A DNA stretch of 64,000 bases from Hydractinia symbiolongicarpus (lineage: Eukaryota > Cnidaria > Hydrozoa > Anthoathecata > Hydractiniidae). Position numbers and translations under genes: made by a program. The stretch lies in contig NC_079887.1 in the NCBI RefSeq assembly GCF_029227915.1, positions 7,316,001-7,380,000 on the forward strand. Direction: 5' to 3'. Numbering within the stretch: the first letter of the stretch is position 1; each line of letters opens with the position of its first letter. The notes beneath the pieces were generated by a model. That model worked only from the letters and a program-made list of their open reading frames with translations, made no database searches and was not told the origin of the DNA. Positions 8,588 through 63,511 of the stretch are shown piece by piece.

Positions 8588-8985
8588 ATTCCAGGAAGAT
8601 CTTGACCGTTTAGAAAGGAATGATATGAGAATGGTTAGGTGGATGTGTAACGTCAGTCTGAGAGACAGAAAGAGTTCAGATGAGCTAAGAAGCAGGCTAA
8701 GTCTCCGTAGAATTAAAGATGTTATCCAGATAAGAAGATTGAACTGGCTGGGGCACTTGGTAAGAATGGAGGAGGATAATTGGGTAAGAAAGTGTAGAGA
8801 CTTGATAGTTCCTGGGGCAAAGCCCAGAGGCAGACCGAGAAAGACTTGGCAGGAGGTTATAAGGACAGACTTGATACAGAGAAAGTTGAGTTTAGATCTA
8901 ACACAGTCTAGATCAGATTGGAAGAGGGCCATTAATATACCCCGTCCAACCCATGCTAGCATGGAAAACGGAGGTTAAGCCGAGA
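8588..8985 (+). pseudogene. LINE reverse transcriptase C-terminal tail
   Basis: The frame reads LERNDMRMVRWMCNVSLRDR, then RLNWLGHLVRMEEDNWVRK, then KPRGRPRKTWQEVI. This is the well-known tail that follows the polymerase domain in one large group of animal endonuclease/reverse-transcriptase LINEs (RMVRWMCG, WLGHvxRM and GRPxxTW motifs). The copy is 5'-truncated: polymerase and endonuclease are missing. It ends with a gatgatgatg run, a common type of LINE 3' end. Two older inverted copies of the same tail are at 42733-43010 and 49625-50230. Confidence 0.85.
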
Positions 8986-22700: not shown

Positions 22701-25700
22701 ATAACAGATTTTAAAATTCCTTGTGAAGGTTATTTTTGCGATTTTGGGCTAAATTTATTCTGCAAACAATTTGTTTTCTTAAGGTTAATCTAATCAAATA
22801 TCACTACTGTATTTTCTTTTCTTTTTTTTTTGCTGTTTTTATTGCTATGCAAGAAACGGGCAGTAGTAACTTCGTCTTTTTGCGTTTATCTTTAGCTTGA
22901 TTTAAACAATCAAATTAAAATGTTTTTTATTGTTTGTGATGTTTAGAAACTTTAACTTAAATTGATTGGTACTTAGTTTTTTTTCTTTTTGGTTCATGTT
23001 CTATTCTTCTTCTCTTGATAAAAAATTCAGTGGAATTTTTCGCTGCTAAAATGTTAATGAAAAAAATCCTAATGTTTTGACGTAGAGAGGAATATGACAA
23101 ATTATTCGACTTTGTCAACACGAAGAAATTGCACATCAAAAACAAAGGAAATAAATCAGTTAGTGGTAATCTTAACGACATGTTCGAGTCAGACGAGGAG
23201 GAACACGATGCTTACTTGAAACAGGTGAAAGCAGAAGGGAGGGAGCGTGACGATGAAGCAGACGATGATGATGACAGTGAAGAGGAAGGTTTGTACTTAC
23301 GTTTTTATTCTTGTTGTTGTTGTTGTTGTTTGTTGGTGTCGGTGTCGGTGTTGTTGTTGGTGTTGGTGTTGGTGTTGCTGTATTTCGTTTTACAAGACAT
23401 TTCCTACACTTTTGTATTGTGTTTTAGATGAAGATTTTAACCCTGCTAATGAGAAAGAAGACGATGTTAAAGAAGAGTAAGTCGGATAATTTTAATACAC
23501 CCTCTCTCCCTCTCTCTCTCACTTTAAGCTCTCTCCTTAAACTAATATGTGTAATATGCTACCACTGTTTAATTCAGGGTATTCATGTCTCCTTAAAACT
23601 CTCCAGTTCTCCAAAATTTTCTTCAATTTCACTATTTATTTGACTTGTATAAATTTTATACAGGGGTGCACTCTCCTTAGTTAGCAGTCACCCTGGGGGC
23701 ATGTGAATTGTGTTAAAATTCTGATAAATCATACCAAGGATCCTCTAAAGTCCCAATCTATTTAAACTCTGACTAAAGTGGCAACCCTGCAGTATGTAAT
23801 GTGTATGTTAATGCGTTTTATTTTATACCTAACCAGATTGAGGATTGCGGTTTCTTTTAAAGCGTATCACCAGCATTTGTCGTTGTTTTATAACCATAAG
23901 GTACTTCTCCTCAGGTTTGATTCTGATGTGTCGAATTCAAGTGGTGATGACGAGGATGAAGACGAAAATAGCGAAGAGAAGAAAAAGAAGAAGAAGAAAC
24001 GAAAATCAGAATCAAAGCACAAGGAATCAAAACCGAAAAAAGCGAAAAGAGAGGTGGAGCTTGTCAAATTTGAAACTTTCGGTAGTTTAGGGAATTAAAC
24101 TAGTTTTTGAGTTTTTCTTAGTTTAGCTGAAAAGAGAATCATTATGTTGTGATAGGCTTTTAAACTAGAACCCAGTGACTTACTGTTTTCTCAAACCTGC
24201 GAAATTGTTATTTATATTTTAGGAAGCAGGTTCTTCCACAAAAAAGAAAAAGGATAAAAACGCCCCTAAACGCCCGATGTCGGCATACATGTTATTTCTC
24301 AACAGCAACAGAGAGAAAATCAAAGCTGACAATCCTGGCATTGCATTCACTGATATTTCAAAGAAGGGTGCAGAAATGTGGAAGAATGTGGGGGGTGCAA
24401 AGGAGGTTAGCTTTTTCGATTTAATCTCAATCAATATGTAAACAAGAAGTCACGCCCTAGTTTTTGACTTTGTTAAAAATAAATTTAAAGCCAATGAAGG
24501 AAGACCGCTCAAAATTAGGAACGGAACGCCAAACATCAATCTAACGATTGAATTTTAACCCTCCTTCTGTTGTCACTCCCCTATATGTCAAAATTTAAAA
24601 ATGTAATCCTCGTTAATCCCAACGTTCCTGTAAAGCGCCTATAACAACAAATCAGTTTAAAATACGTTATATTCTCCAAAACACGGTATGAAATATCTTA
24701 ACAAGGGATTTAACCCCATCCCTTCGTAGCGACGCGTAGCCTACTGGTCCACAGTTTGCTTCGTAATCGCAAGGTCCGTGATGTTTACCAAGTGACTTTG
24801 CCGCAGCTATGGGTAAACCCACGCCACGTAAGGGAAATTGAATAGGCAATGGCGGTGTTTACATAACGTATACATTCTGAACACAGGACCCACATTGTTA
24901 ACAGTGTTTCCAACATTGTAATTGCTATCCTGTATAAGTATTCAGAATAATAATGAGTAATGCTAATAGTGTCGTTAGCGTATTTTTTTATTCCTAAATC
25001 ATCTAAAATGCAATCCTGTCCATAGCTGTATAAAAGATTACCAAGTTCGAATTTAGTTCCCAAGGTTGAAAGCCCAAGATCAGAAGCTTTTGCTAGTTTG
25101 GCGCACAAATGGCTTTGGGTGTGAAAATACAAAAGATGTATTAATGTAGCGTAAAATGGTAATATTTTAAGTGACACAAAAGCAACGTTGTGATGCCACC
25201 ACCATGTTTAGCGTGCCTTTGTTTACTGTGCCAAATGTTGTCGATAACAAAACAGTTTCAAATTTTGGACCAATTTTGACTTGAAATTGCTTCCACTCCC
25301 AAAAAAATATATTTTGTTGTTATTATATTTTTCAGTATGCTGTTTTGTTCAGTATGCTGTTTTGTTCAGTATGCTAATTTGTATGAAAACAAAGCATTTT
25401 TTTTATTTTTTGTACCAATTTTCACCTAATACGGTCTTTACCAATGACAAAACATCACAATATAGACGTCTATATCATTTTTTAAAAAGGCTCGTTACAA
25501 AGCTACATAACCTGTTCATCTCTATTTCGTGCTTGCTTGTCACAAAGTAGCGATCCAGCTAATATTTTCATCAAAACTTACTATTTTGAGAAAATTAGGG
25601 TTAAAGTCCTTAATGAAATTGTTAATTATAAGTCGTTATTTATTAATTCATTTCTTAGTTGTGGTATGATACAACATTGATGCCATAAATGATCAGATAC

Positions 25701-27308
25701 GAACCTAATCTTTTATTAGGGTTGTGATATTAATGTAACATCACCTCTAGGCCTTGTCAAGCGATTGAAATTCATATTGATAAACGTATCATTTAGAAAT
25801 GGGAGAACCTGGCTAAAGAAGCCAAAGTGAGATACGACAAAGAGATGAAAGAGTATAAAGAAAAGCTGAAAGAAAGCGGTGGCGCTCCTTCTCCTGCTAA
25901 AAAAAGCAAGTCAATTAAAGACATGATGAAGAAGAAAGAAACGCCCAAAAAGGAGGGTGATAATACCAAGTTTAAAAGCAAAGAGTATATCGAAACAGAC
26001 GATGATTCCTCCTCCTCGGATGACGATGACGCAACTGAGAAAGTAAGTTTTTGCTTCCCTTTTTTTATTTGTAGTTTATGTATTGGTGTGTCCAGTCATC
26101 GTTTTGGAGGCCACTTGGTCTCTTTTAAAACAACAGATTTATTTCTTACCACTTGGTTGGTTGTTTTTTGTGCACGCGTGACAACTGTCCAGTTAACACT
26201 ATAAAAACATCACAACAAAAAGACGACCATGGAGAGCAGCTGAAAAATATGGGCAAATAGACTGTGAGTCATTCCACCAAAATGTAGCGAAGCATGCAGT
26301 ACATGTCAATATGGTTAAAATTAAATACTGTTTTCAATGGAATTGATAGGATGAAGCATTCCATATAGCATAAGACATTCTATAATGATGGATTAAATTT
26401 AAAGCCCGTGGCTCAGTATGATATTTAGGATAATGTAGCTCTTTTTTCTTAGCTTTCATTTTAGTTTTTTTTCTCTAATATTTCTGAAATCTTTTCACTC
26501 TCCTACGTCATGATTTCTTCAAAATGTGTACCTACAGTGTAGCTACAACCCTTCCCAACATATAGTTAGACAAGGTGGAAAATTTCGAACTTACTTCCTG
26601 CAAGTAATTATATACGCTATTTCTATACTAAAATCTCAAAAAAATATTAAAAAATCAGAAAAATTCACAGCAGACTTTTGTTACAGATCTTAGATAAATT
26701 GATTAAATCTTTACAAATTCTTACTATCGTTTATTGTTGCTGACGTCAGCATGGTCATTTGTACTTAAAAAAACTTAGTCTTCTGGGGCAACTAGCTCTT
26801 TTTGCAAGCTGCTTACCTAAAATGTGAATCTTAGTTGTACTTCTGCAGTCTAATGTTTTTTTGCTTTGTAAAATGGCCAAAAAAGTGTAGCTACCTCATT
26901 ATATTGGCAGAAGTTGCACCATTCACAGGACCTAATATCCAATTTTTCCGAAACCTTGTTTTTCGAGCACAATTCGGAACAATAAAGAAATACGAATAAT
27001 CACCAGCCTGGTTGGAATTTTTGTACACTTTTAGAAACACATCTGAAACATTTCGATGGGGCAGAGAGATTGCACTTAGAAAATCTCACTGTAAAAATAA
27101 ATTGTTAGTATATAAATAAATCTTCTGTTTCTGTAAATTCTAGAAGTCATCTCCGGCTGAGGTTAAAACGTCAAAGTCAACCAGATCAAAGCGTGGCAAA
27201 GGCGATGACGAAGCGTTGGTCGCATTAGACGAAGGTTCTGCCCAAGAAGAAGAAGAAGAAGCAGAATTCTCTGGTGAACAAAGTTCGGATGATGATGATA
27301 GTGATTGA
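13723..27308 (+). CDS. SSRP1: SSRP1, FACT histone-chaperone subunit (16 exons, 736 aa)
   Basis: Exons: 13723-13776, 13887-14072, 17034-17139, 17419-17496, 18241-18356, 18638-18732, 19408-19543, 20644-20747, 21044-21172, 22097-22318, 23086-23288, 23428-23476, 23915-24053, 24223-24405, 25797-26042, 27144-27308. All introns are GT-AG and phases agree, giving 736 aa (vertebrate forms are about 710). The product pairs with SPT16 in nuclear FACT, which loosens and rebuilds nucleosomes during transcription and replication. Seen in order: N-terminal domain ([15 protein letters not shown]); double PH-like middle domain ([39 protein letters not shown]-like block); acidic linker with DDDDSEEE; lysine-rich patch; one HMG box, about residues 549-625 ([17 protein letters not shown]), split by a 1.4-kb intron; and a charged tail ending DDDDSD. 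Every landmark is intact, so a functional gene is likely. Confidence 0.97.
14315..15505. mobile_element. 1.2-kb inverted-repeat element in SSRP1 intron 2
   Basis: The ends are caggcttggacagtag (left) and the inverse of caggcttgaacaggaatgg (right), with further inverted similarity through ggcgtgc/gtgtgcgg words (about 14337-14440 against 15415-15500). A matching target duplication could not be seen. The interspersed repeat 14572-14795 is nested inside. No transposase was found. Confidence 0.55.
14572..14795 (+). repeat. Interspersed repeat, copy 2 (pair with 11192-11416)
   Basis: The same ordered words as copy 1 (tgacttagttaaaagaacta, ctattgcctggccccttcg, ccaggtcttacacaagaaat), with a short replacement near the middle of the 3' half (aaagggggaacgccaacgg instead of a gtagataatactgacag-type stretch). 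Confidence 0.7.
17681..17880 (+). repeat. Two copies of an actagtcgtta / cgtggaaaaatc repeat
   Basis: actagtcgttagcacgtgga (17683 on) and actagtcgttaacccgtgga (17825 on) each continue with aaatc-cgggt/cgggg and a t(c)gccc word. The cgtggaaaaatccacg core can form a small hairpin. Copy one continues with cgtctcgctacttgca and ctaccattttg, words that recur together at 31481-31600. This is a family of short interspersed repeats within SSRP1 intron 4. Confidence 0.65.
19620..19870 (+). mobile_element. tRNA-derived SINE in SSRP1 intron 7
   Basis: The head resembles a tRNA gene with both internal promoter boxes: tggtggttagagcactagcc (A box) and gttcgagactgg (B box), 30-odd bases apart. A body follows: tgtgtaacaagcttctggtc, tcaagtgaaaaacgtgattg, ttgaattttgtaggacgaat and aaagtca. 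A truncated body copy is at 21247-21492, and a scrap of the head/body junction (ctcgagactggtctctg, caactcacccc) is at 20001-20030. The head cannot fold into a full tRNA, so it is not called as a tRNA gene. Confidence 0.7.
21247..21492 (+). repeat. Head-less SINE body copy in SSRP1 intron 9
   Basis: Begins tgtccaaatttgtgtaacaa and runs through ggtcactgtgtcaagtgaaa, gattggg, gaattctgtaggacgaataa, cattaaaacatggctttacg and ttgtacacattcgtaattct. It is collinear with 19720-19985 but lacks the tRNA-like head, as expected for a 5'-truncated insertion. Confidence 0.7.
21588..21740 (+). repeat. ~42-bp tandem repeat, about 3.5 units
   Basis: Successive units carry agcaacagaggctgaaat (with one or two changes), then caaaattttgcctt. 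It lies in SSRP1 intron 9 shortly after the SINE body. Units differ by a few bases. Confidence 0.7.
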
Positions 27309-43229: not shown

Positions 43230-45604
<2,375 letters not shown>

Positions 45605-46968: not shown

Positions 46969-49900
46969 ATGAAAAATAACTGTTTTATTGCTAAGACATT
47001 TACATTGACTTTGACACAAGAAAGTACAGTTTCCAGTCGCTCAGTGTTGCTACAAGGTAGCAAAAATGCCAACATACATGAAATTTTTTCAGAAGATTTT
47101 AAGCTGGCGTTGGACTCGTATCGGGAGCATGCAAAGAAGATCATAAACAAACAGTTAAATCTTTCACCAAATATTGACAGTTATGATATAAAATTCAGTG
47201 GCTTCTCTATTAAACCTGAACTTGTCCATGCAAAGACATCAATAGTGATGGATATGCACATTGTGGGCAACGTTTTGATGAAAAAAATGGATTTTTATAA
47301 ATATGAGGATGTCTCTTCCGCTGCAGTGAAAGAACTTATTGAAGTTTTAAAGCGTGCAATCGAGACAGTAGTAAGAAATCATGCTGATATAGAAATTACA
47401 AGTATGTGTTATGGATTCGAAGGTACAACCATGTCCTTAAAGTTTCTTTTGCAAAAAGCAAATAACGGTGTTTTTAGCAGCTTTGAAGAAAATCAAATTG
47501 TACAGGTGTTAAACGAGGAATCAAAATTGTCAGAATTTAAAATGTGCTTAAGTGACATTGGAATAGAAAGTGGTACAGTTAAAATTGAATTTCCATGTTT
47601 AAAGCCCTTCAGATATGTGTTTGTAACAACAAATATTGTTGTGGATGAATCTCACAAGTTATTAGATTTAGCTGATCGACTTGAAGGCTTTCAAGCAAGT
47701 CTTGAAGTTTTTTCAGTTTTTTATATGGACATGCAAAAGGAAAAGGAAAATGTACTGAACACAGGTAATATATTTGGTTATCTAATTTAGCAAAGCTCAA
47801 GCTTATTCAAAAGTAAGTTCATCCCTAAGGGAAGGGCCCTCCCTTCCCTTAGGGATGAACATTATGAACGTACTTAATAGCGAACTAAAACAAACAAGGG
47901 AAGAAGAATATTTGTTTTGTGTACAAGCCCTTTTTTTCTTTTTACTTTTACATGCTTTTAATTGGTTGTTTATGAATGTGCGATACCATGTTAATTAATT
48001 TTGGCTAGTTGTTGGTTCCAATGTTTGCTAGATGTGTAAAAGTAATAACCACCCGATGTTCGCATTATGTTCGTATTCTCAGGGCTGACTTCTCATTCCT
48101 TTTGTTGAAGAATTTATTTAAATTAAAAATTTTTGTTGTATATGTGTTTTGATTTTGCAGAGGTGTAGATTCTATTCAAAATGTTTACTCACTTCACCAC
48201 TGTCCATGATAAAACAACCTTAACCAAAAAATTTGATTAGTGTGAACAGGCATTGCCACTATGTTAAAATAAAGTTGAAAGTATGAATGTGTCAGAAATT
48301 TTATACTATATTATTGTATGATGCTTATTTAATGCATTTTGTTGGAACTGTTCACTTGAATTGTTTTTTCAAAATAAAACTATTTTCTATAGCTTCACAA
48401 TTCCATACATGTTTTTTTTTTAGAATCAGAAACTCTAGTTCACCCTTTAGTGAGTATTTGGTTTTATTCAAGACCTAATTGGACCAACAAGCAACTAAAT
48501 ATTCGGAATAATATTTAAGTATTGATTATGTTTCAGCGAAAATTAGAGACATCAGCAGAAGATCATACATTTATATTTGGAAAGGTATTGCTCTTTTTTT
48601 TTTTTTGTTGGTTGCGTTTTTAAAAACATTGACAGTCTTTGAACTAGTAAAGGATTAGGCCGCTATAAATTTTAGAAATCTTAAAAATTTTGTATAATGG
48701 GGTGGAACATTTAAAACCTTAAATGGAATGTAGAAAAAACTTCTTCTAACTTTATTTTTCATATGCAAACATTGTTTCACATTTTTTTTTAATTTTTGGA
48801 CAAACATTTTTCTGTTTCAGCTCTTCCAAAGCAGTAACAAGTTTAACTTTAAGGCCTTTAAAAATATCAAGCAAACAAACTGACCACTGAACTTAAATAA
48901 TTTGATTACGTGATAAGCATACAAAATTATGATTGAACAATCACTCCAGGCACTTTAAATTTTTTCTCATGCTACTCATAGAAAATTTTTAACTGCTTTT
49001 TAGAAAATTGAACGGTGTGTTGCCTTGATTTTGGTGGATATTCAGAATGACTTTATTTCTGGCAGTTTAGCATTACGAGATGCTCCTGCGAGAGAAGATG
49101 GAGAAAAAGTAGTTTCTGTCATTAATGAAATTTTAGGTAGATATTTTATTCATAAATAACTATGAACATGGAAACCTCAATAAGCCCAAGAAACAAAGTG
49201 CAAATACAGTATGATTAGATTGCACTTTAAGTTTTTAAATTGAGAGAAACCTTATTTTTTTGCCCTAAAATTCCCAGAAAAAGGTGTTAAGGCCTTACTA
49301 GGATAACAATTTCTGCTTTGAACAGCACTACTGTAATTTTATGTATTAATATGTAACCTTTTTTTGCTAAGAAATATTGTGTAGTGTAATGGCATGTTCA
49401 TTGCAACATTGAAGATCAATGACTGCTCTAGTACGTAGGGCAATTTTGTTGAGTGAACCCTGATTACTAGAGGATTAATAATAGCCAGTATATTTAACTT
49501 AACCTTAAGGATTATCAATGCAGGAATAACTCTTGTTGGATTAATATTTGCTAGACTTTTTTTTTTGAAAAAAAATCCCTTTAAACAAAAAAACATTATT
49601 CTCGACTTAACAGCCCTTTCCTATGCCTTTACCATTGGCTGGATGGGGTAATTGCATTGGACCTATCAAATCTAGACTGTGTGAGTTCTAAACTGGCATT
49701 CCTTTTCTTCCATTCCTTATTACGGTAATTCAAGTCTTTCTCGTTTTACCTGTGGCTGTTGCCCCAGGAACTATCAATTCTCTACACTTTGTTACTCAAT
49801 TAACCTCTTCCATTCTTTCCAAGTGTCCCAACCAACTCAATCTTCATATCTGGGTAACATTTCTAGTCCTACAAATACCTAAGCTGTTTCTAAGTTCACC

Positions 49901-52900
49901 ATTACTCTTTCTGTCTCTTAAACCAATATTGCACACTGACCTACAATTTTGTCATAGCCTTGATTCACAAATTATTCGCATTCCAATTAAACTTAGTGTT
50001 AAGCAACCTCTGATAATAACTCTTTCAAGCTAGCTTCTCTGTACTAGACAAGACATTTCTCATCTACAACATCGTGATTTGTCTTTTTCATTTGTCAACA
50101 CATCTGCAAATCTATTTCTCTCTTCTCTTAAATTTGTCTTATACACTGCTTTACAAGCACGGAACTAGCTTCAAAGTAGATATTTTTACTACTGCCTAAC
50201 TTTTGCTCTGCTCAACATCATTAATAAGGTCTGCCTTATCCAGTCGTTTCCTCCACCCATATAGGCACACTATAATTTTATAAAAGACGATTCTTCAAGT
50301 GATCCAAGTACTTTCAACATTTTCACTATCACATTGACCATTGTTGGACAACTGCTGAATTTCTGAAGTAAATTGTATTATTGCTATTAATTGTATTGTT
50401 GCTATTATCTCTTCTTTAGCTTCCGACAAAGCTTTTTTGAGCAGTCTTCAAGACAATATCACAATATGAAAAACATTTTCTAAGGTTAAATTAGAGCAGT
50501 AAATTTTCAATACTAACTCTGAAATGTCTGCACTAAGTGAGGATTCATTTTCTGATAAACTATTGCGGAAACAAAACTTTCTCAGAAACTAATAAGGCAG
50601 TGCTATTTCAAGGGGAAGAGAGAGGAAAGTTCCAGCTCCTGATAAGGACTCTGCTTTTACTTTCTCCCTCTAACATTCAAATAAATTTAATTTCAAGCAA
50701 ATGATTGTTGGCAAAGTTTTTAAACAACATTCCTGCACCGTGAAACATAAATAAAGTGCTAGCTCTGTAACCCTAGCGAGTTTCTACTTTACATTTTACT
50801 ACTTTTTGGGCTAATTTTTCACCGTGATCCATTATCGAATGCTTAAGAAGATGTTTGTTTCTCACCTTAATTTTTTGTATAAAAGAACTGGTTACTCTTC
50901 TAGTGAAGAGGCTTAATACCATACCTTTAGCAGGCTGCCACCATTGTTTTTAATTTGATTGTGGTCATGTTATGATAACAATTTGTACTCACGAACATGA
51001 ATTCTGTCCTAAAAAAATTATTTTCACAAAATTTGTACTGAAACTAAGTTTGCATTTGTCCACATTTTTTGTATTTGCAAGAGTGTCTGGGTTCCTCCAC
51101 AAAGGTTGTACTGAACAGTCAAATTTATACCTTTATTATTATGGTTTAGAGAAGAACAAATTCGATTTGGTTGTTTATACACAAGACTGGCATCCTTCTG
51201 ATCATTGTTCCTTTATCACAAATGTGGATAAATACGAGATCCACAGTTGTTCAAAGAAAACTGCAGAGAATGTAGAAGTATTTGATCAAGTGGTTTATGA
51301 TGGTGATCCTGTGTTAGTTCAGGAAATATGGCCACCACATTGTATACAGGGTTCTTATGGTGCAATGTTTCATAAAGACTTAAATGTAAGTTTTTTGCGC
51401 ATGGTTAAAATTTCTGTTTTGGTAAATATATGTAGATACTAACTTTGAAATTATCTAAAACTTTGGTATAGTTATAAGTATTGTATGCAACTAAAATATT
51501 TAAAAGATTCAAAAATGCTTCAAATTTTTTTAAGTACTTTTAAATATTCATTGCTAAAGCCGTATTCTAAGACCAAAATTAAACCAATTTCCTAAACCTG
51601 AGTCCACCCACCTATTTCGAAATAGTTTAGTTAGCGACGTCATTAAAAAACCAATAAACCCCTCTCTGTAACTGTTTGTCAAAAGTACATGATCAAATAC
51701 ATTTTCTTTATCCGTTTTTAAAGATTTACACAATGCAGGTAACAGCTAAAATAAGTTTTTTGTTCATTGCTTGGTCATTGCTGATGTCATCAAAATGTTA
51801 ATGACAAATTTTTTCTTTCTTTTGATGGATGGATGTCTTACAGTTACGCGAGTGCCATTAGAAAAGCCCTTATTCATGTTTGTGATTGTTAATAACATAC
51901 ATGGCACCAGGTTTTAATTTAAGACAACGAGGAGGCATATCTGATGGTGTGGTACTATTTAAAAATTCTACTGGCACTTAGGCAGTGAATCAATTCCGTT
52001 CCTAAGTGCCATAGTGGAGAACTTTTTAAGCACATGTCAACAATCTCTGTTGGTTTTCATTTTCTGACAACAGGCAATAACCATGAAAAATCTCCGCAGA
52101 AAAGAGCAACTTCACATACAATGGCAGCTGGCTAATGCATGTTAAAAAGACAATCTATTTAAGATTTAGAAAAAGAAGAGATTTTTTGCTTATGCTGCAT
52201 GTATTGTTTTCTTAAATAAGAACTGGTAATCAAACAACTAATATATGGTAGTACCTTTTTTCAAAAGAGTTGCTGCCAGTAAATGCAGCAGTTTCAACTT
52301 TACCTGAAACCTGAAGTAAAGTTTAGAAATAAGGTAATTATAAGTAAAGGTTTTACTACTGCAACCACCACCTTCTAAATAAAACAAAAGGTTATATTGA
52401 GCCGTATTTCTTGCAACATTTACAACAGCTTCCATAACTGCATAAGCCAGTGCAGTTTTTTCTTTAGTAATTTGAGTCCTCAGTTAAGAAGACCTATTGG
52501 CCTCCAAAGCTACACAAATGTTTTCATTTGGTGGTATTTCTAAATTAGGAAAATTAAAATCAGTAAGAGATTTACCAAATTGTCGAAGGACAGAATAAAC
52601 ATCTGGAAAGACCCTTTGGTTTGTTCTTCATTAATTTTTTGAATATATAATCCTCACATGTAGAACCCTTGTATTTTGTCCACAAAGTATAACGATCAGA
52701 AAGTTCACAGTAAATAAGTATTACTGCAAACTATTGTTCCATTCAGTATCATTTTGCAGGAGTCCATGCAATAAACAGGTTTCATCAAATGTTTCAGCTA
52801 TATTGGCAACCACAGTTCGTAAATCTTCGAAAGAAGCACTATATGTGTATGCAATAATAGCATATGTAAATAAAAAAGCTCACCTATGCGAGGACTCACG

Positions 52901-55640
52901 GGATTGGGAAAAATTGGGAAAAATTGAATTTTTGGGCAATTTTTAGTGTTTTTTATGCCAATTATGTAAAAACGAGAAAACATGTTAAAGAACTTTTATT
53001 TGGCTGAAATTTTAAAAAATGATAAAATTTTCCCTACAACTAATTGAATTTTAAGCAAGTGTTGGTATTTTGGGCAAACTTCAAGCATTTTGGTCCTTTT
53101 GTGACGTAATATAAGTGTGCCAAGTTTGTTTAAATTTGAGCAAGCCTATTAAGAGATATGCAAGGGGGAGAATCTGCCTCGGTTATAATATGTTTATGTT
53201 CAAAAAACCTGGCACGAATAGGGTTAGACAGTTAAGTAGTTATGCTCTATTATGCTTTGATAAAAGACTTTATCTCTAAACCTTATCCGGACAATTCCAA
53301 AATTGATTGATTGACAATTCCTAATTGTCCTATAACTCTACCGTTAACAGGGAATAAAAAATCAGAAAGACTTGTAAAGCTTGCTGGCTGGTTAATTTAT
53401 AAATACGGCTTGCAAATTACTTAAGAGATCATCTGATTTTCTGATTTTGAAAAATTTGTACCTAATTTAAATTCGTATTTATCACTCACTTTCAATTTAA
53501 TAAATATTTAAAATTATTTCTGGTTTAATTTATTGCAATCTTTTTTTTATCAGTTTGTGAAGTTCTCAAATGATGTTTGATTATTTATTAGGTCGTGAAA
53601 GACAGTGTAATCTTACAAATTGGAACAAATCCTTCCATAGATAGTTATTCAGCATTCTGGGATAATGCGAGGAAATCTCAGAGTAAATTGAAATCCATCT
53701 TGGAAAGCCATAACATCACCACAGTGGTTATTGCAGGACTGGCTACAGATTATTGTGTTGGTGCCACTTCTATTCATGCAGCCGAATTTGGTTTTGACAC
53801 ATATATCGTGAGGAATGCGTGCTGTGGTATACATCCCACAGAGATTGAAATTAGAATTGAGCAGATGATCAAAAAGGGTGTTAGTATTATTGGATCTCAT
53901 GAGGTATTGGTTCAAGGTTTTAATACCTAAATGCTGCAATTGATTTTTGTGCTGTCTTTTACCTAGAGATATAGATCAGGGTGTAATCCAGAAAAATTCT
54001 GGAATTTTTGAAAGGTTGTGTTTGTACACATTCTATGCTGGCATCCAAAAGAGAAAATTTTGGAATAATACATAAATATCTGCTTTTTTATGATGTTTTG
54101 ATGTTTTTAAAGTAGTGATGGATAACAATATTGAAGAGCGTACACTCACTTGTTGCAGATTAAAATCATTTTACAATGAAAAACAATGTAAACAATCTTC
54201 TTAATTTCTTGTTTATCGCAACTCCCAGATATAATTTTTTATAGCTTTTAATAAAAATTGTATGTTAAAAGATAATATGAATATGGCTAGAAAAATGTTT
54301 AATTTGTGAAAAAGCTGAAGTACCCAATGTCACCAGTCAAAAACGCTGTGGAAAGTGAAATTGCAGAAAAACAAATGAAAGAAACATTTTCTTTGTTTGC
54401 ATTTAAAACTCATGCATTATATGGTGGTTTAATAATTTATTTTCTCTTTCTTTAAGGTCATCAACGTTCTCTCCTTATTGCCTATGATGACTATGAGATC
54501 AATACTAGCATAATATATTTTATGCTTTTAATTTTAATCACACAACACCTGTGCACATTGTTTTTGAAAAAGATTACTGGATGGTCAGATGGTGCCTTAA
54601 GGTGTTAAGTGAAAGTGTATTCTAAAAAATATTAAACCTTTTTTTGACTAATGTATGATAAATTCGAAATAAATTTTGATTGGGAAATAACACGTTAAGA
54701 GCAACTAAAAATGCTGTATTACACCCTGTAGATATGTAGATATTTCCACATACTTATCTAAGGTAAATTTGGAAATACATTAATTATCAAGCGTTCAATT
54801 GATTTTAGATTCCTCAGAAACATAGTCCGTGGTTGAGTTTTCCTCCAATCAGTCCTGGTGGAAACAATCAGTATACTGAGGGTATGTGTCTTTACTTATT
54901 TATTTATTAATTAATTAATAAATTATTTTTTTTTAGTTTGTAACAGTCTTAAATCCTGATGCATAATATTTTTAGATTCTGTCACTGTTAAGACTGTATT
55001 GGAAAATTATATCAATTTCCAAATATTGGAGAAATCTCTTAACAAGCCAGATAATGATTGCAACTGGCTTAAACTTGGGAATGAGCTCTCAAAAGTAGTC
55101 AATATAACAGAAACCTATTTGATTAGAATACAGAATCGAGCGCGATGTGGCGGTGGAAACCCAGCAGAAGAGTTATTTAATAGCATGAAATCTAAATTAC
55201 CAACCCTTACCATAGCTGATTTCACTGCTTCAATTAAAGAGTGTCGAAGAGAAGATGTTCTTCGGTACTTAAATAGCAAGGTATTGCCTGAATTATTTAC
55301 TGATTTATCACTTGAAGAAGTCGAAGATTTGTCTGGCTTACTTAACACAAGCAATGGTCCAGGTTGGGATATCTTGGCCGCCATATTGGGATACAGTACA
55401 AGTGAAATTGACTTAATAAGAAGTGTTTCTATACAGTCTGGACATACTTACAGTCCCACGGGAAGCCTACTGAGACGGTTGTTACATATCAGTCCTGATT
55501 TAAAAGTTAGTGTGTTGATAAATGCTGCTCGTCGAATACAACGAAACGATATTGCCAATTTTTTATTAGAAAATATTACAGAAATGAATAACCAGCGTAT
55601 GTCAAATAAAAGACACATTTCAAAACTTTTGATGTTATGA
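46969..55640 (+). CDS. Nicotinamidase-like/tandem Death-domain fusion, copy A (8 exons, 762 aa; catalytic Lys lost)
   Basis: Exons 46969-47764, 48424-48449, 48537-48584, 49004-49136, 51150-51385, 53592-53903, 54809-54881, 54976-55640; all GT-AG, phases consistent, and the same architecture as copy B. Residues 1-265 are an unrecognised domain, then a short linker. Residues 291-520 form an isochorismatase-fold nicotinamidase: ILVDIQNDF (Asp302), metal ligands in QDWHPSDH (Asp347, His349) and WPPHC (His398), IDSYSAFWDN, and GLATDYCVGAT (Cys468). The catalytic lysine position (LQ-x-GTNPS) is Ile423, so hydrolysis of nicotinamide is doubtful. Residues about 553-641 and 653-742 are two Death-like domains: NWLKLGNEL with NPAEELF; PGWDILAAILG with SPTGSLLRRLL and RRIQRNDIANFL. 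Inferred role: a cytoplasmic adaptor sensing or binding nicotinamide, possibly partnering copy B. I know of no named gene with this layout. Confidence 0.85.
47817..47860. repeat. Perfect 20-bp-arm hairpin in intron 1 of copy A
   Basis: The left arm gttcatccctaagggaaggg (47817-47836) and right arm (47841-47860) are exact inverted repeats around a 4-base ccct loop. It begins 52 bp after the exon-1 donor. Copy B has no equivalent at the same place. Confidence 0.9.
49625..50230 (-). pseudogene. Decayed LINE RT tail in intron 4 of copy A
   Basis: The reverse complement aligns over its length with the 8588-8985 tail: ctagactgtgtgagttctaa, tctttctcgttttacctgtg, gccccaggaactatcaattc, ctctacactttgttactcaa, agtgtcccaaccaactcaat, then weaker similarity upstream (a LERV..RG stretch at about 50000-50030). 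Numerous stops. It is inverted relative to the host gene. The plus-strand frame over it (49752-50033) is a shadow. Confidence 0.75.
51835..52850 (-). pseudogene. Broken Helitron-type (Pif1-like) helicase in intron 5 of copy A
   Basis: Reading the minus strand from 52850 down, despite several frame changes and stops: SFEDLRTVVANIAETFDETC with LLQNDTEWN; CELSDRYTLWTKYKGS; VLRQFGKSLTDFNFP; YAVMEAVVN; then a damaged Walker A (FYLEGGGCSSKTFTYNYLI instead of GGGGSGKT) followed by AATLLKKGTTI; ALFCGDFSWLLPVVRK (the GGDFRQxLPVV box); and finally TPSDMPPRCLKLKPGAMYVI with a FNGTRVTVRHP-like end. This is the domain order of the helicase half of Helitron RepHel proteins. The replication-initiator part was not found. 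The copy is inactive. Confidence 0.8.
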
Positions 55641-56668
55641 TTGCTTTTTTTCAACAATTGTATTTGTAGATAATTTAAGTTTGCCTTTTTGAAGCACAAA
55701 GTTCATGACCAGTAAATACTAGTACATGCTGTTTGCGAGTTAGTCCAGTGAGTGAGCATCAACAGCATGAATTGTTGTTTTCTTAGATATTATTTTTTTA
55801 CGTTTTTATTTATATTATAATAACTGACTTTCTGTCTGTAAGCCAAAAATTGACAAGAAAATTCCAGTAAATTTTGACAGGTGAATTCCCATGGTTTTTC
55901 TAATGGGTGAATTCCACCGAATTTTTCACAGGAATTTAAATTCTGAATATGTTTAGACGACGGCTGGTTGCATTGTCTGTCTACTAAAAATAAATTACTT
56001 GTCTTGCTTGCCGGATGAACGTTTCTCTTTTGCTGCCACTTGGTTGTATTCTGTTGTTCTTAGAGTGGTTTTTAAACACACATAAAATTTAAACATAATT
56101 ATTTGTGTAAATCTTGTTTATGTGCCTGTAATTCTAAGTTTATTATGTTTAAGATGTATCTATTTGGAATGGTTTTACCAAGTACTGTATATTGTTCTAT
56201 CTGATAGTAAGGAAATCCTGCTACCAGGGCAAATGATGTTGATGTAATATTTTGTAGAACTAAAAGTCCTAACGTTTTCAGATGCAAATGCTATTATGTT
56301 GCAAAGATTATTACATTACATTTTATTATAAAATGTAGTTTCAATATCATTTGACACCCTTTAAGATTGAACTACAACAACCTGCCTTGCATTGTAAATG
56401 AAATGTTAATTTGTAAAAAAATGCTATAAGAATGTTTATTTTTTATTATCCTTAATCTTCCAAGTTTTAACATTAAACTTGTTTGACATGATTTCTCTAA
56501 TTTCATGTTAGCTTTTTTCCTATTTTACTGTTTTTTGCAGTTCTTTTTATAGAGTAGTGTATTAATGGCATATATATGTACTGCGTTTTCAAGTCATTTA
56601 TGACACATATAGCATTATGGCTATTCAAGGAAATGCATATGACCTGACACAGTCTTAATGGTTTCACC
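55641..56668. other. Intergenic between the two fusion genes
   Basis: About 1.0 kb, AT-rich, no coding signal or repeat recognised. It holds the 3' UTR of copy A and the presumed promoter of copy B. A five-codon frame ATG GTT TCA CCA TGA (56658-56672) overlaps the copy B start codon; if transcribed it would act as an overlapping upstream ORF. Confidence 0.4.
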
Positions 56669-59600
56669 ATGAAAGGTAAATGTTGTACGGCTAAGACACT
56701 AACGTTGGCGTTGACTCAAGAAAGTGTAATTTGCAATCGATCAGTGTTGTTGCAAGGTGGTGAAAATGCCAACATACATGAAATTTATTCGGCAGAGTTT
56801 AAGTTGGCATTAGACTCATATCGAGAGCATGCCAAGAGGCTCATAAACAAACAGTTGAGACTTCCACCGAATAATGAAAGTTATGATATAAAATTCAGTG
56901 GATTCCGTATTAACCCGGAACATGTCCGTGCAAAAACATCAATAGCGATGGATCTTCACATTGTGGGTAACTTTTTGACGAAAAAAGTGAATTTTTATAA
57001 ATATGAGGATTTTTTTTCGGCATCAGGGAAAGAACTTATTGAAATTTTAAAGCGTGCAATAGAGACTGTAGTAAGAGATCATGCCAATATAGAAATTACA
57101 ACATCGTGTTATAAATTTGATAGTCTTAGCATGTCCTTCAAATTTCTGTTACAGAAGTCAAATATCACTGTTTTTAGTAGTTTTGAAGAACATCAAGTTG
57201 TTAAGGTATTAAATGAGGAGTCAAGATCATGTAAATTGTCTGAATTTAAAATGCGATTAAGTGAGATTGGGATAGAATTTGGTATGGTGAAGATTGACTT
57301 TCCATGTTCAAAACCATGCAGGAAAGTGTTAATAACAACAAATATTATTGTGGATGAATCTCACAAGTTATTAGATTTAGATGACCAACTGAAAGGAGTT
57401 CAAGCAAGTCTTGAAGCATTTTCAGTTGTTTACAGGGATATGCGAAATGAATGTGATAAAGAAGTGAAAACAGGTTACATATTTAATCCTGTGTTTTTTG
57501 TTTGTTTTTTCTGACGTGTTTATGAACATTTTTATACTATTTATTTTAAAGGGAGCTTTCAAAAGGTATGTTCGTCTGGGAGACGGGAAAGGGGTCACAC
57601 AATAATGAACAAAAAGAGGGATATTTCTTGATTTTTTTTTAGTTTTTATGTTGAGTATTAAAGCTATACTTTGTTGGTGTTGTACTTTATTGGTTGATTT
57701 CGGCAAGTAGTTGGTAATAGTTGATAAATGTATAAAAATACTGACCGTGTGATCTTAGCATTGTGTTATTAGTGTGTGAGTTTTTTGTTAAGATATTTGG
57801 AATACAATGACTTAATGCAAAGCATTATCTATTTTGTTTTTGCAGAGGAGAGTTGTATGTATGAAGAGAAAGGTCGATGACAAAAATGAAACGAACATTT
57901 CATGGGAGGAGGTGGGGATCGAAAATTTTCGGGAAAGGACTATTTCATTAAAAACTGTGACATAAAGAATTTTTTTATTTCAGGGAACAGTTCATTGTCA
58001 AATGGTTTAACTCCGCTTATTACCGTGAACGGATGTGGTAGGATGTAATTACTACCTTTAAACTTTATTTATTTATTTATTTAAATTTCACAGTTGTTTT
58101 AAAAACTTTTATGTAACTTTTTACGCGATTGTTGGATGGATATTCCTTGAAGTCCTTAAAACTGCTTTTTATTGTACAAGGAGTAAGAATGACGCTTTAT
58201 TTAAACTTATTTTATTTTAAAGGTTAATACTGGACTTTTTCTCTTTCAGACTCGCACCCAGTTCACCCCTTGGTAAAAATTTTGTTTGATTTATATAAAG
58301 TTGTTATTTCCTTCATATTAAACTCTATTGTAGTAACTTTGTTGTTTGTTATTCTTTCACTGTAGAATGATTATTGTTTTAGCAAAAATTGGAGACAACA
58401 GCAGAAGATCACCTGTTTATATTTGGAAAAGTAATGCCCTTTTGATATTGGGTCAGTTACAAATAAAAAGGTGTATGATTAAGACGAAGCGCCATTTAGA
58501 TTTTACCCCTCCATTCCTAAAGTTCAAATTAAAAAAAAATCTCTAAGGAAAGCAAACTTAGTCCCTAAGGAGAACAAGCACTCCATTATGTTAAGCATAT
58601 GCGAACAACATCCAGTTAAAAGTACTTTCCATTCTTCAAAAAAAAAGATGTTTCGCAGTATGTTTTTGTATAAATACCGTTCACTTTTCTATTTGCCATT
58701 CGCCTCTGACATAGTTGGTAAAAGTTCGAAAATATTTGTTTTGTTTTATGGTTTGCTTTATTTTTTAGAAAATTGAACGATGTGTTGCTTTGATTTTGGT
58801 GGATATTCAGAATGACTTTATTTCTGGAAGTCTAGCCTTACGAAATGCTCCTGCGAAAGAAGACGGAGAGGAAGTTGTTTCAGTCGTTAATCAAATTTTA
58901 GGTAGTTATAGTTCTAGTGTAGCTTTCTACAAGAAAACTTAGTAGTTAGGAAGCTTCTAAATATGCCTATTTTTTCACTCTGAGACCTTGGCAGATTCTT
59001 GGGGAGTTCTGTGAAATAACAAAAAAGTGAGCATATTTGTTTCTCAATTTCTTTTCAATGGTCAGGTTTCATTGTTAAAAAAACTAAGAAAAAAACAAGC
59101 CATGTTGTAAAAGGTCAAAAATGTGAAAAAAAATTATTGTCAGTTGATTCCTACTTGTCTTTATTTATTTTTTGCAAACAAATCTGAAGATGTACGGAGA
59201 AAAACCTTCCTGATGAAAACATGTCAAAACCTTGTAACCCACGATATTTTGAAAAGCCTTTTCGAAATAAAAAGTAATGGTTGCATTGTAAGGGCTACCT
59301 CAAGATTTGTTTGCCAGTGATGCCATATTAATAGTATTATACAAATGTATTGCACATTTATTCAAGAATTGTTGGTGTTAATTATTATATTCGTGGTATT
59401 TAGGGCCTTCTCTGCAATAATATAATAGTAAACATGTTCAAGTAAAATTGACAAGAATTTTCAAACTTTTTAGTAAAGTAAACTAATAGGCCTACACTTT
59501 CCTCAACACTTTTCATGCATCTTCGCTGTTCTAAAATCTGTGCCGTTAATATCCTTCAAGAGGATCCGTCAATGTTACTAATAAAAGGACTGAGTACATC

Positions 59601-62600
59601 CATTTGTTTCGTAGAACCTACATTTTCAAGTTATCCTAACAAGTAACCCACAAAACTTAATTTTATCGTCGAGCAAGTTTATTGTATTGTTATCCATTAA
59701 AGAAACGTTGTATTGCCAATCAAACCCAAAAATTTTGAGTCAGGCAGCTTAAGGATAAAAAGCATTTTTTTGTGACCTCACTGTTCAGAAAGTTAAATTA
59801 AAAGCAAATTTTCATGCAGTTTATTTCTTTGTTGTTACCAATATATATTCATTGTTATTGAGAAAACATTTTGTTCAGTGTGTTACACTCTGAAGTACTA
59901 AACTCCACTTTTATAGTTTATTTTAATCTTAAAACTTTGTTCTTGTAAGTTTTTCAATTTAAATTCATTTGTGAGAACGGCTGTCTAACAAAATCTGTTG
60001 TGATTTAGAGAACTACAAATTTGATGTGGTTGTATATACGCAAGACTGGCATCCTCCCAACCATTGTTCCTTTATCACCAATGTAGATAAATATAAAATC
60101 CATAGTTGCTCAAAGAAAACTGCAGAGAATGTAAAAGTTTTCGATCAAGTGGTTTACGATGGTGATCCTATTTTGGTTCAAGACATGTGGCCACCGCACT
60201 GTATACAAGGTTCCTATGGTGCCAAATTACACCGAAACTTAAATGTAATGCCTGTTTGCTGCAAGATTTTTTTTAAGATCCAAAACTATATTTTTCTTTT
60301 GTATTATGGGCATATTACCTCTACTGGGCAAAGAAGGTCAGGAATCTCATTAGATATATTGTGGGCGTCTTGTATTCATTTTGTATTCTAATATTTTCTA
60401 ATGTTTTATTGGTCCAGACAATAGTAAAATAAAGTTGCACTTTAATGGGGGAAAAATGGCCATAAGTCAGTCAATGTCGAAGTTAAAAAAATTTCTTTGG
60501 TGTGAGAAAAGTCGGAAAAACACTTTTTTCGAAAACAAAGTGATGAAAATTCATAGAATTTTTATTTGCAGAAGGGGAAATTATTTACTTTCATAACTAA
60601 TTTTACCTTACCAGTGCATTTTTAAACAATTTTATGTTAAAAAGGCGTATTGATACGATGAGTGGTTTTAGTAGTTTCACCTGTTGTTTTTGTCATTCGC
60701 TTTATATTGACTAGCATGTCATTGTGGAAAAATAACAAATCTACTTTGCCTATCACCGGCATTCGGAAGGAGGATATTAGTATATAGACTAGTTGTAAAA
60801 TAGCAAATCTACTTTGCCTATCATCGGCATTCGGAAGGAGTGTATTAGTATATAAGACTAGTTGAAAATAACAAATCTACTTTGCTTATCACTTTTATTT
60901 TGATTATTTTCAGAAAACAATTCGTTGATTTTATTAAAAATATTAAGACTAAGACGTTTTAAACGAAATGACAACAACAATTACAATGTTTAATAACCCG
61001 TGACTTTGTCCGAACCTTAATATATAACAGCCCTGTGGTTTTTAAATTTATCAAGGAAAATTATGTTATGTATAAAATTCTCAACTGATGAAATTATTTT
61101 ATTTATCACATGATTTGTCCCAGTAAGGAGTATAGCTTTTAGGAGAAGTTTTACAGGCGTTTTTTAAGAAGATTTTAGAAATTATAATCGAATTTGCCTG
61201 CCACAGACAGAGAGACGTTTAGTGGTCACGAGATATTTTTACAGGGACCATGGAACGTCATTTAATTTATTTTAAAGCTTTTTAGCTATCCTGTTTTAGA
61301 TGTACGGCTTAAGGAGAAGTAGGTTTGAGAGAAGTTTTGTTATCTGATGCAGTGGTGGGCAAAGTGGGTAAACCTGTAATTAAGTTTTTTAAAAAATTTC
61401 ATTAAAATAATAAGTTTATCAGATACGAAATATTGCGGTATTAGGTAAATTCTTCTTTTTCATACACATTTATTTTGTTTATTTAGGTCTTACAGGACGG
61501 TGTTATATTGCAAAAAGGAACAAATCCTTCCATAGATAGTTATTCAGCATTCTGGGATAATGCAAGAAAATCTCAGAGTAAATTGAAATCCATCTTGGAA
61601 AGCCATAACATCACCACAGTGGTTATTGCAGGATTGGCTACAGATTATTGTGTTGGTGCCACTTCTATTCATGCAGCCGAATTTGGTTTTGATACGTATA
61701 TTGTGCAGAATGCGTGCCGTGGCATACATCCAAGAGAGATTGATATTAGAATTGAACAGATGACCAAAAAAGGTGTTAATATTATTGGATCTCATGAGGT
61801 ACATCGACTGCCTTTATATGCAATAATAATGCATTGTTTAGATTTGTGCGTCTAAAAATTTGCACAACCTTTCGTACGTCACATTTTGAAATTTAGCGTG
61901 ACAAGTATTTGAACAAGGATATAAAACTCCGGAAGGGGTGTTCTTATCATTGTAGCAAGGTATTTGCGGAGTGATATAAACATAGATGACTGAAGATTAC
62001 TATTACACCTGTGTTCCTTTGATTATAGATTCCTCAAAAACAAAGTGCATGGTTAACATTTCCTCCACTCAGTCCTGGTGGAAATAATCAGTACACTGAA
62101 GGTATGTGTTTTTGTTTGGTTAAATAAATCCCTTTGTAAAAATATCCATATTGGTCTGTATAAATTGAGACACATCAGTGGTTCTCATACGGACTAGGTG
62201 GCAAGTGATGTTTCGCCAAGATACACAAAAACCGAGTTCACAAAACTGCCCATTGTACAAGTGAAAATATTTCCATCACCAAACTACTAGCATGCTTAAA
62301 TGATGTCAGGTGGTGCATTATTTTTTAGAGTATTTTTTTTTATTATCTCGAGAAGTATGTTGGTTATACCACAGAGGGCCAATAAAGCAGTACTTAAATT
62401 TTTTACCTTGCACGTTAAACTGATTCTGACCAATTGTTACGTTCCATTATGTGGTACAAGTAGGCTTAATACCCGTCGTATTACACAATCATAACTTGGC
62501 CTGTTGTTTATATTAGGTTTTAAAGGATATCAAATAATTTTTTCTTTTGATTGTACTGAAACATCAAGTGCAATTATATATAGTACAAACAATTACCACT

Positions 62601-63511
62601 ATGGCTAAATTTTTGAAAGTACACTATATAATGTTCCGATAGAACTTTGTGTGGCAACTAATTACCTTTTACAGGAAGGGGGCTGGCGTGGCGTGGCCTG
62701 GCCTGGCCTGGCCTGGCCTGGCCTGGCGTTGTACGTTTTAGTTATGTATTAAAATCAATCTCCACAACCCCTCCTCCACTGCTCACTACTATCTCCCAAA
62801 GATTTTTATATGCATTGCCTGTTTGTTGTATGTGATACCTTAACTTTAGATTCCGTCACTGTTAAATCTTTATTGGAGAATTTTATTATTTTCAAAACAT
62901 TAGAGGAATTCCTAAATAAGCCAGATTGTGATTGTAATTGGTTTAAACTGGGAAGGGAACTCTCAAAAGTAGTCAACATATCAGAAAGTTATTTAACGAG
63001 GATACGAAATCGAGAGCGATGTGGCGGTGGAAATCCTGCAGAAGAGTTATTTAATAGCATTAAGTCTAAATTACCGTGGCTTACTACAGCTGAATTTTCT
63101 GCTTTGATTAAAGAATGTCAACGAGAAGATGTAATGCGGTATTTGAACGAAACGGTATTGCCGGAATTATTTAGTAATTTATCACTTGAGCAGATCGAAC
63201 ACTTGTCTGCCTTACTTAACACAAGCAATGGTCCAGGTTGGGATATCTTAGCAGCCAAATTGGGATATACTACAAGTGACATTGACTTGTTAAGAAGTGT
63301 TTCTATACAGTCTGGATATACTTACAGTCCCACTGGGAGCCTGCTGAGACGGTTGTTACACATTAGTCCTGATTTGAAAGTCAGTGTGTTAACGAATGCT
63401 GCTCGACGCATACACCGAAACGATATTGCTAATTTTTTATCAGAAAATATCAAGGAAATAAACAATCAACGAATTGTGTTGAACCGAAGACACAGATTCC
63501 AGACGTTTTGA
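56669..63511 (+). CDS. Nicotinamidase/tandem Death-domain fusion, copy B (8 exons, 763 aa; catalytic triad intact)
   Basis: Exons 56669-57473, 58250-58272, 58383-58430, 58769-58901, 60009-60244, 61487-61798, 62029-62101, 62850-63511; GT-AG, phases consistent. Layout equals copy A: an unrecognised 268-residue domain, linker, nicotinamidase (about 293-522), two Death-like domains (about 555-743). Catalytic residues all present: Asp304 in ILVDIQNDF, Lys425 in ILQKGTNPSIDSYSAF, Cys470 in GLATDYCVGAT; metal ligands Asp349, His351, His400. Known for the family: nicotinamide is deamidated to nicotinate, feeding NAD+ salvage and removing an inhibitor of sirtuins and other NAD+-consuming enzymes. The Death domains (NWFKLGREL with NPAEELF; PGWDILAAKLG with SPTGSLLRRLL) would allow recruitment to signalling assemblies; that coupling is inference. 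Introns are unrelated in sequence to those of copy A, so the duplication is not recent. Copy B is the better candidate enzyme. Confidence 0.88.
57984..58037 (+). other. Possible cassette exon (18 codons) of copy B
   Basis: A polypyrimidine tract and acceptor (tttttttatttcag) precede 54 nt that stay open in phase and end at a donor (tgtg/gtagga). Entering and leaving in phase 1, it would insert 18 residues (NSSLSNGLTPLITVNGC core) between exon 1 and the micro-exon at 58250-58272 without shifting frame. No counterpart is seen in copy A. The donor is weak. Confidence 0.35.
60729..60895 (+). repeat. ~68-bp tandem repeat, 2.4 units, in intron 5 of copy B
   Basis: The words caaatctactttgcctatca, tcggcattcggaaggag and ttagtatata(a)gactagtt start at 60736, 60804 and 60872 (last unit partial). 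The actagtt word resembles the end of the 17681-17880 family. Confidence 0.75.
62682..62730 (+). repeat. (CCTGG)n-type pentanucleotide microsatellite
   Basis: Six or seven ggcctggcctgg-type units flanked by ggcgtggcgt variants, in intron 7 of copy B, about 120 bp before the last exon. It is a strikingly G+C-rich island in AT-rich DNA. Confidence 0.9.

Follow-up and report, generated by a model that had tools for sequence, protein, structure and literature searches.

Known nicotinamidases and NAD-linked signalling systems

The breakdown of nicotinamide adenine dinucleotide (NAD) and the assembly of Death domains each play a central part in innate immunity and cell death, and nicotinamide is a product and an inhibitor of NAD-consuming enzymes. 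SARM1 and TIR NADases link NAD chemistry to a signalling scaffold, as would two neighbouring genes of the colonial hydroid Hydractinia symbiolongicarpus, here called gene A and gene B, which encode a nicotinamidase fused to Death domains and are located in C13:7316001-7380000 (hereafter the window, the whole 64,000-nucleotide stretch analysed; genome searched, 481 Mb). SARM1 and TIR NADases consume NAD, whereas the Hydractinia fusion proteins would act on its product nicotinamide. Nicotinamidases, which were lost in vertebrates as the initial annotation of the window had stated, have an Asp-Lys-Cys catalytic triad common to yeast Pnc1 and the animal enzymes (Asp8, Lys122 and Cys167 in yeast), with the metal bound by Asp51, His53 and His94 (PMC3665594).

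The animal nicotinamidases (Naam/PNC) are represented here by the PDB entry 9u8m and the Clytia protein P0026, the latter with about 50% identity to the Hydractinia enzyme over the catalytic domain; both carry the triad and metal residues as in gene B, whereas gene A, unlike animal Naam, lacks the catalytic Lys. Among the 98 matches of one protein search, 17 list EF-hands and 96 no Death domain, in contrast to the Hydractinia pair with its orphan N-terminus and two Death domains; the EF-hand family was absent from Pfam scans of A and B. The families PF00857 (nicotinamidase) and PF00531 (Death) occurred together only in two Hydractinia proteins (2/24, 0/1 and 2/98 matches in the protein searches). 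These searches required shared five-letter words within set length limits, and the 98-match search scored the best 8000 candidates, so that absence of the fusion elsewhere is not proven. Among the papers listed in the literature searches, including cnidarian, Hydractinia and SARM1 contexts, no nicotinamidase/isochorismatase-Death fusion was found described, and none was found on pseudoenzyme nicotinamidases. Within this limited reach of literature and protein searches, the initial suggestion of an architecture without described counterpart stands.

Structure of the gene pair

Gene A (46969-55640) and gene B (56669-63511) follow each other on the + strand of the window, with spliced coding sequences of 2289 nt (762 amino acids) and 2292 nt (763 amino acids), respectively. 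Each gene has eight exons with equal phase at each junction between the copies, and all 14 introns have GT-AG ends; splice models and GT-AG check thus agree with the original claim of a reading frame kept over eight exons in both copies. In both genes the orphan N-terminal domain comes first, followed by the nicotinamidase (PF00857) and the two Death domains; the proteins share 592/759 aligned residues. The gene A product is identical, letter for letter, to that of NCBI LOC130622852 (P0001); this record goes back to the assembly analysed here and adds no independent sequence. For gene B, the NCBI isoform X2 of LOC130622850 (P0002, 516 amino acids) comprises exons 2-8 behind a different 21-residue start (MGGGNSS...). 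The features, all on the + strand and with their basis in brackets, are as follows; P0025 is a further database protein.

46969..47764, +, gene A exon 1, orphan N-terminal domain of 265 amino acids (splice model, NCBI protein; relatives gene B and P0025)
48424..48449, +, gene A exon 2, linker (splice model)
48537..48584, +, gene A exon 3, linker (splice model)
49004..49136, +, gene A exon 4, nicotinamidase with catalytic Asp302 (splice model, homologue alignment)
51150..51385, +, gene A exon 5, nicotinamidase with metal ligands Asp347, His349 and His398 (splice model, homologue alignment)
53592..53903, +, gene A exon 6, nicotinamidase with nucleophile Cys468, and Ile423 in place of the catalytic Lys (splice model, homologue alignment)
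53619..53621, +, gene A ATT codon of Ile423, its gene B counterpart being AAA of Lys425 (A/B alignment)
53622..53797, +, tract of 176 nt near-identical to gene B with at most 3 mismatches, probable gene conversion (codon shuffles)
54809..54881, +, gene A exon 7, linker (splice model)
54976..55640, +, gene A exon 8, tandem Death domains and stop (splice model, Pfam, profile, hhalign)
56669..57473, +, gene B exon 1, orphan N-terminal domain of 268 amino acids (exon 2 junction from phase and gene A)
57846..57911, +, gene B alternative 5′ exon, with the ATG at 57902 as start of isoform X2 (start of P0002; putative 5′ edge 57846, from the AG acceptor at which the conserved A/B intron block stops)
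57984..58037, +, gene B alternative 5′ coding exon of isoform X2 (P0002)
58250..58272, +, gene B exon 2, linker (splice model; present in P0002)
58383..58430, +, gene B exon 3, linker (splice model, P0002)
58769..58901, +, gene B exon 4, nicotinamidase with catalytic Asp304 (splice model, P0002, alignment)
60009..60244, +, gene B exon 5, nicotinamidase with metal ligands Asp349, His351 and His400 (splice model, P0002, alignment)
61487..61798, +, gene B exon 6, nicotinamidase with catalytic Lys425 (codon 61514-61516) and Cys470 (splice model, P0002, homologue alignment)
62029..62101, +, gene B exon 7, linker (splice model, P0002)
62850..63511, +, gene B exon 8, tandem Death domains and stop (splice model, P0002, Pfam, profile, hhalign)

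Nicotinamidase domains

Pfam scans of the whole proteins gave PF00857 scores of 78 bits for A and 89 bits for B (cut-off 27), and the best PDB match of gene B was 9u8m (E 7e-59), the closest structures being nicotinamidases. Gene B contains the complete triad (D304, K425, C470) and all metal ligands (D349, H351, H400). Gene A has kept the metal ligands D347, H349 and H398 together with Asp302 and Cys468, and has Ile423 at the position of the catalytic Lys. In the alignment this Lys was present in gene B and in 118/118 nicotinamidase homologues, which were picked by similarity to gene B, so that active enzymes may be favoured among them. Of 49 columns conserved in at least 80% of the homologues, 7 are altered in A and 5 in B; two are altered in A alone, namely Lys to Ile and one Arg to Cys.

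For the bacterial enzyme SpNic, an experimental dependence of activity on the Lys-Asp-Cys triad is stated, and modelling assigns a stabilising role to its Lys (PMC6271260). The K104A variant of the bacterial nicotinamidase OiNIC retained 1.45% of activity, for which the authors suspect misfolding (PMC3581539). Genes A and B, the former without the catalytic Lys, are therefore not equivalent: of the initial claim that each gene joins an N-terminal domain, a complete nicotinamidase and two Death domains, the fusion holds for both copies and the complete enzyme for gene B only. On these residues the gene A product is probably a pseudoenzyme, possibly still binding nicotinamide, and the two products together resemble an active enzyme with a switched-off partner.

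Tandem Death domains

The Death family PF00531 was detected in the whole proteins at 30 bits in A and 35 bits in B (cut-off 22.6). Taken alone, the second unit of exon 8 exceeded this cut-off in both genes (27.8 bits in A, 27.7 in B); the first unit reached 17.5 bits in B (E 0.0047, full-length), below cut-off, and gave no match in A. A genome search with P0002 returned, up to E 1, 14 additional matches to its Death region, from which 12 were retrieved and 8 combined with exon 8 of A and B into a ten-member profile drawn from this single genome. Pfam detects Death in 6/8 of these relatives, the two others being L037 and L039.

The first half of the ten-member profile matched RIPK1 Death domains (E 0.0095-0.014), and the second half matched the Death domains of p75NTR, NRADD, MyD88, ankyrin and FADD; the weaker matches of the first half, to IRAK4, Pelle and UNC5 (E 0.1-1.4), were not counted, as non-Death chains were intermingled there. 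When the two units were aligned to each other by hhalign, the probability was 98.2% (E 5e-14) from the ten-member profile and 4.6% from A and B only. A PDB search with the first unit from A and B only returned a spurious repeat protein and sorting nexin-25 and did not find a Death domain. The AlphaFold2 model of exon 8, made from 2 sequences, has 12 helices at a mean predicted local distance difference test (pLDDT) of 43, too poor to support claims, and a PDB fold search with this low-confidence model gave no match at E 0.001.

Because of the ten-member profile matches and the alignment of its halves, a Death-domain identity is most likely for both units, with the first one divergent. The C-terminal repeats, read as Death domains from the outset, are borne out by Pfam for the second unit in both genes; for the first unit, which is below the Pfam cut-off, this reading is supported by profile and hhalign. 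The receptors, adaptors and kinases p75NTR, NRADD, MyD88, FADD and RIPK1 resemble the Hydractinia units in Death profile, whereas no matched chain was named a nicotinamidase; no TIR domain was present in the Pfam scan of A and B.

N-terminal domain and the short isoform of gene B

The orphan domain occupies the N-terminal 265-268 residues of A and B. Its single relative in the protein database besides A and B is P0025 (271 amino acids, from a 1298-base contig), which shares 232/263 residues with A and 186/266 with B. No Pfam family scored above cut-off, no PDB sequence matched better than E 0.1, and tblastn on 16 retrieved genomic loci did not find the domain. The AlphaFold2 model of exon 1 (3 sequences, pLDDT 35) is likewise too poor to support claims.

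In isoform X2 of gene B the orphan domain is replaced. Transcripts starting at the nicotinamidase part, which the initial annotation had taken to speak against the fusion, are in part represented by this form, yet its nicotinamidase and Death domains stay joined. A sensitive search of intron 1 alone revealed one block in which A and B agree at about 60% of positions (E 7e-11; window 47930-48163 and 57627-57848). This block ends at the splice acceptor of the gene B alternative 5′ exon and may act as alternative promoter or in splice control. By eye, we take the MGGGNSS start to fit an N-myristoylation motif (MGxxxS-type). A membrane form of the gene B product, with predicted myristoylation, is possible on account of this start and of the acceptor at the end of the conserved block.

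Selection and history of the pair

The ratio of nonsynonymous to synonymous substitution rates (dN/dS) between A and B was 0.234 overall, 0.36 in the N-terminal exon, 0.145 in exons 4-6 (nicotinamidase) and 0.20 in the Death exon, with a synonymous rate (dS) of about 0.5. Had one copy evolved freely since duplication, a dN/dS of about 0.5 or more would be expected. When the gene regions were compared by blastn at E 1e-3, exons alone aligned and introns were without match. Since dN/dS is low and only exons align in that comparison, A and B are an old duplicate retained under purifying selection. Shared phases, dN/dS and the NCBI models joining nicotinamidase and Death exons uphold the initial view of a real and constrained fusion. 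Gene A as a pseudogene was rejected on its open frame, GT-AG splice sites and dN/dS.

The 176-nt tract of exon 6 stands out in this comparison, as 0/2000 codon shuffles reached its length (maximum 110). Its first nucleotide immediately follows the Lys/Ile codon; gene conversion thus probably homogenised the Cys region beside that codon while the codon itself stayed different. Gene A changed somewhat more than gene B against 7/7 outgroups, which are not mutually independent (8 v 4 against the nicotinamidase gene on C8, and 7 v 6 at the least), and by family frequency A departs at 10/27 sites and B at 17/27.

Other nicotinamidases and Death exons in the genome

A third nicotinamidase gene was identified on the minus strand of C8 at about 19,740,000, with the catalytic Lys intact in the two catalytic exons read. 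It is sister to the Clytia enzyme with a support of 96/91, and the placement of A and B among animal nicotinamidases has a low support of 28/17. This gene can meet the housekeeping role of a nicotinamidase, and it rejects the idea of the A/B fusions as the sole Hydractinia nicotinamidase. A tblastn search with the Death cassette found none in 9.6 kb downstream of it, and the genome-wide search with P0002 gave no Death match near it. The cassette search missed 5/12 retrieved Death loci, and the A and B Death exons were not among the 20 matches of a genome-wide PF00531 search; a very divergent Death exon near the C8 gene is therefore conceivable.

As far as read, none of the other genome-wide PF00857 matches (three on C2, one on C9) is a nicotinamidase; the frame of L001 on C2 and that on C9 we take to resemble ISOC2. 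The C2 matches (L001-L003) are a frame of 199 amino acids with equal scores at three places, whose flanks differ in ungapped comparison. As the sequence outside the frame differs, this suggests retrocopies or duplicates.

The exon 8 relatives are dispersed on C1, C5, C7, C10, C12 and C13. Each of the 8 aligned is a single open frame and 20-27% identical to gene B exon 8; these tandem Death modules resemble that exon, while their partners are different or unassigned. About 52 kb downstream of gene B, L035 (C13:7426001-7435500) contains a tandem Death exon with a GGGNPA motif in common with gene B, and this locus is a possible source of the fused Death cassette. In L039 (C5:22938001-22947500) a tandem Death exon is preceded on its strand, at a distance of about 2 kb, by a TNFR_c6 frame, and a further cysteine-rich frame, seen by eye, lies more downstream. 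The Death exon of L039 is weak (E 0.017 to P0002, no Pfam match); the arrangement suggests a TNFR-type receptor gene, possibly tandem receptors with two Death domains.

Proposed function and alternative explanations

It is quite possible, if still short of likely, that the locus encodes an active/inactive nicotinamidase pair brought to Death-domain assemblies, with a putative role in signalling. The two proteins would form a nicotinamide-handling module on a Death-domain scaffold. The predicted active nicotinamidase B would be drawn by its Death domains to a signalling complex and there remove nicotinamide, yielding nicotinic acid. Protein A would bind nicotinamide, hardly hydrolyse it, and enter the same assemblies by way of its similar Death domains, either as a regulator or as a subunit that responds to nicotinamide, and the short B isoform would bring enzyme and Death domains to membranes. 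We infer from this a candidate direct link between nicotinamide and Death-domain signalling. A stricter version is improbable, in which A is a nicotinamide sensor that binds without turnover, its occupancy switching the Death assembly, and B resets the signal by destroying nicotinamide; if true, this would give a Death-domain switch that is gated by a metabolite, resets itself and reads NAD breakdown. With A and B side by side, the locus is a natural experiment on whether the signal is catalysis or nicotinamide binding.

Several points weigh against a pair of active and inactive enzymes in signalling. Seven residues upstream of Ile423, gene A carries a further Lys, which is absent from B in the alignment, and residual activity of A is conceivable, since the loss in OiNIC K104A may reflect misfolding. 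The change counts do not mark A as freed from constraint. The Death domains could serve mere oligomerisation. Furthermore, the protein search returned the 516-amino-acid isoform of gene B only and no full-length 763-amino-acid NCBI form, so gene B exon 1 is linked to exon 2 by phase and by the gene A model.

A purely metabolic specialisation is a somewhat unlikely alternative: the Death and orphan domains would merely oligomerise or localise an extra nicotinamidase B, and A would be a redundant, decaying copy without signalling. Monomeric, dimeric and heptameric forms are described among the nicotinamidases of archaea, bacteria and yeast (PMC3665594), and the slightly faster change of A than of B against all seven outgroups, not mutually independent, would fit decay. 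However, A has an intact frame, intact splice sites and a dN/dS well below the expectation for free evolution, and the C8 gene already supplies a nicotinamidase with intact Lys.

That gene A is instead active, with another residue standing in for Lys, is doubtful; the upstream Lys is a putative substitute, and Asp, Cys and every metal ligand are kept, but Lys occupies the site in all 118 homologues and OiNIC K104A lost >98% of activity, possibly through misfolding (PMC3581539).

We give equally little credence to a developmental coupling, in which the fusion would make nicotinic acid for trigonelline and so couple the supply of this compound to the caspase-dependent apoptosis that occurs in metamorphosis. 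Trigonelline, or N-methylnicotinic acid, is a Hydractinia larval metabolite that blocks metamorphosis; larvae of H. echinata are high in it, and the level drops on induction (PMC12225738; PMC9604745). Titles cited in PMC4715348 report caspase-dependent metamorphosis and instructive apoptosis in H. echinata, a relative of this cnidarian with apoptosis-linked metamorphosis. Against this, the step from nicotinic acid to trigonelline in Hydractinia is an assumption, the C8 nicotinamidase could supply nicotinic acid, and the papers treat H. echinata, a species other than H. symbiolongicarpus.

An annotation artefact, in which prediction joined exons of adjacent orphan-domain, nicotinamidase and Death-domain genes, is highly improbable: NCBI P0002 of gene B lacks exon 1, which may sometimes be a separate product, but two diverged copies have equal eight-exon phases, NCBI models join the nicotinamidase and Death exons in both genes, and the linker exons 2, 3 and 7 are conserved.

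Other features in and near the window

In PADLOC, P0001 gave no match and P0002 one weak restriction-enzyme match (E 0.0065), which was dismissed. Intron 4 of gene A contains a repeat fragment (49731-49918) 81% identical, reversed, to 8661-8848, with no Pfam match; the reading frame at 8661-8848 is presumably LINE-like (long interspersed nuclear element). About 2 kb upstream of gene A, an open frame at 44800-45126 (+) has a sub-threshold RWD match (E 4e-4, 20.9 vs 22.8 bits). The charged exons 23081-23428 and 25797-26201, without match in the Pfam scan, presumably resemble the chromatin factor SSRP1. Directly downstream of the window, L010 (C13:7380001-7389000) contains long frames, which we take to resemble a retrotransposon polyprotein (gag-like, reverse transcriptase, integrase).

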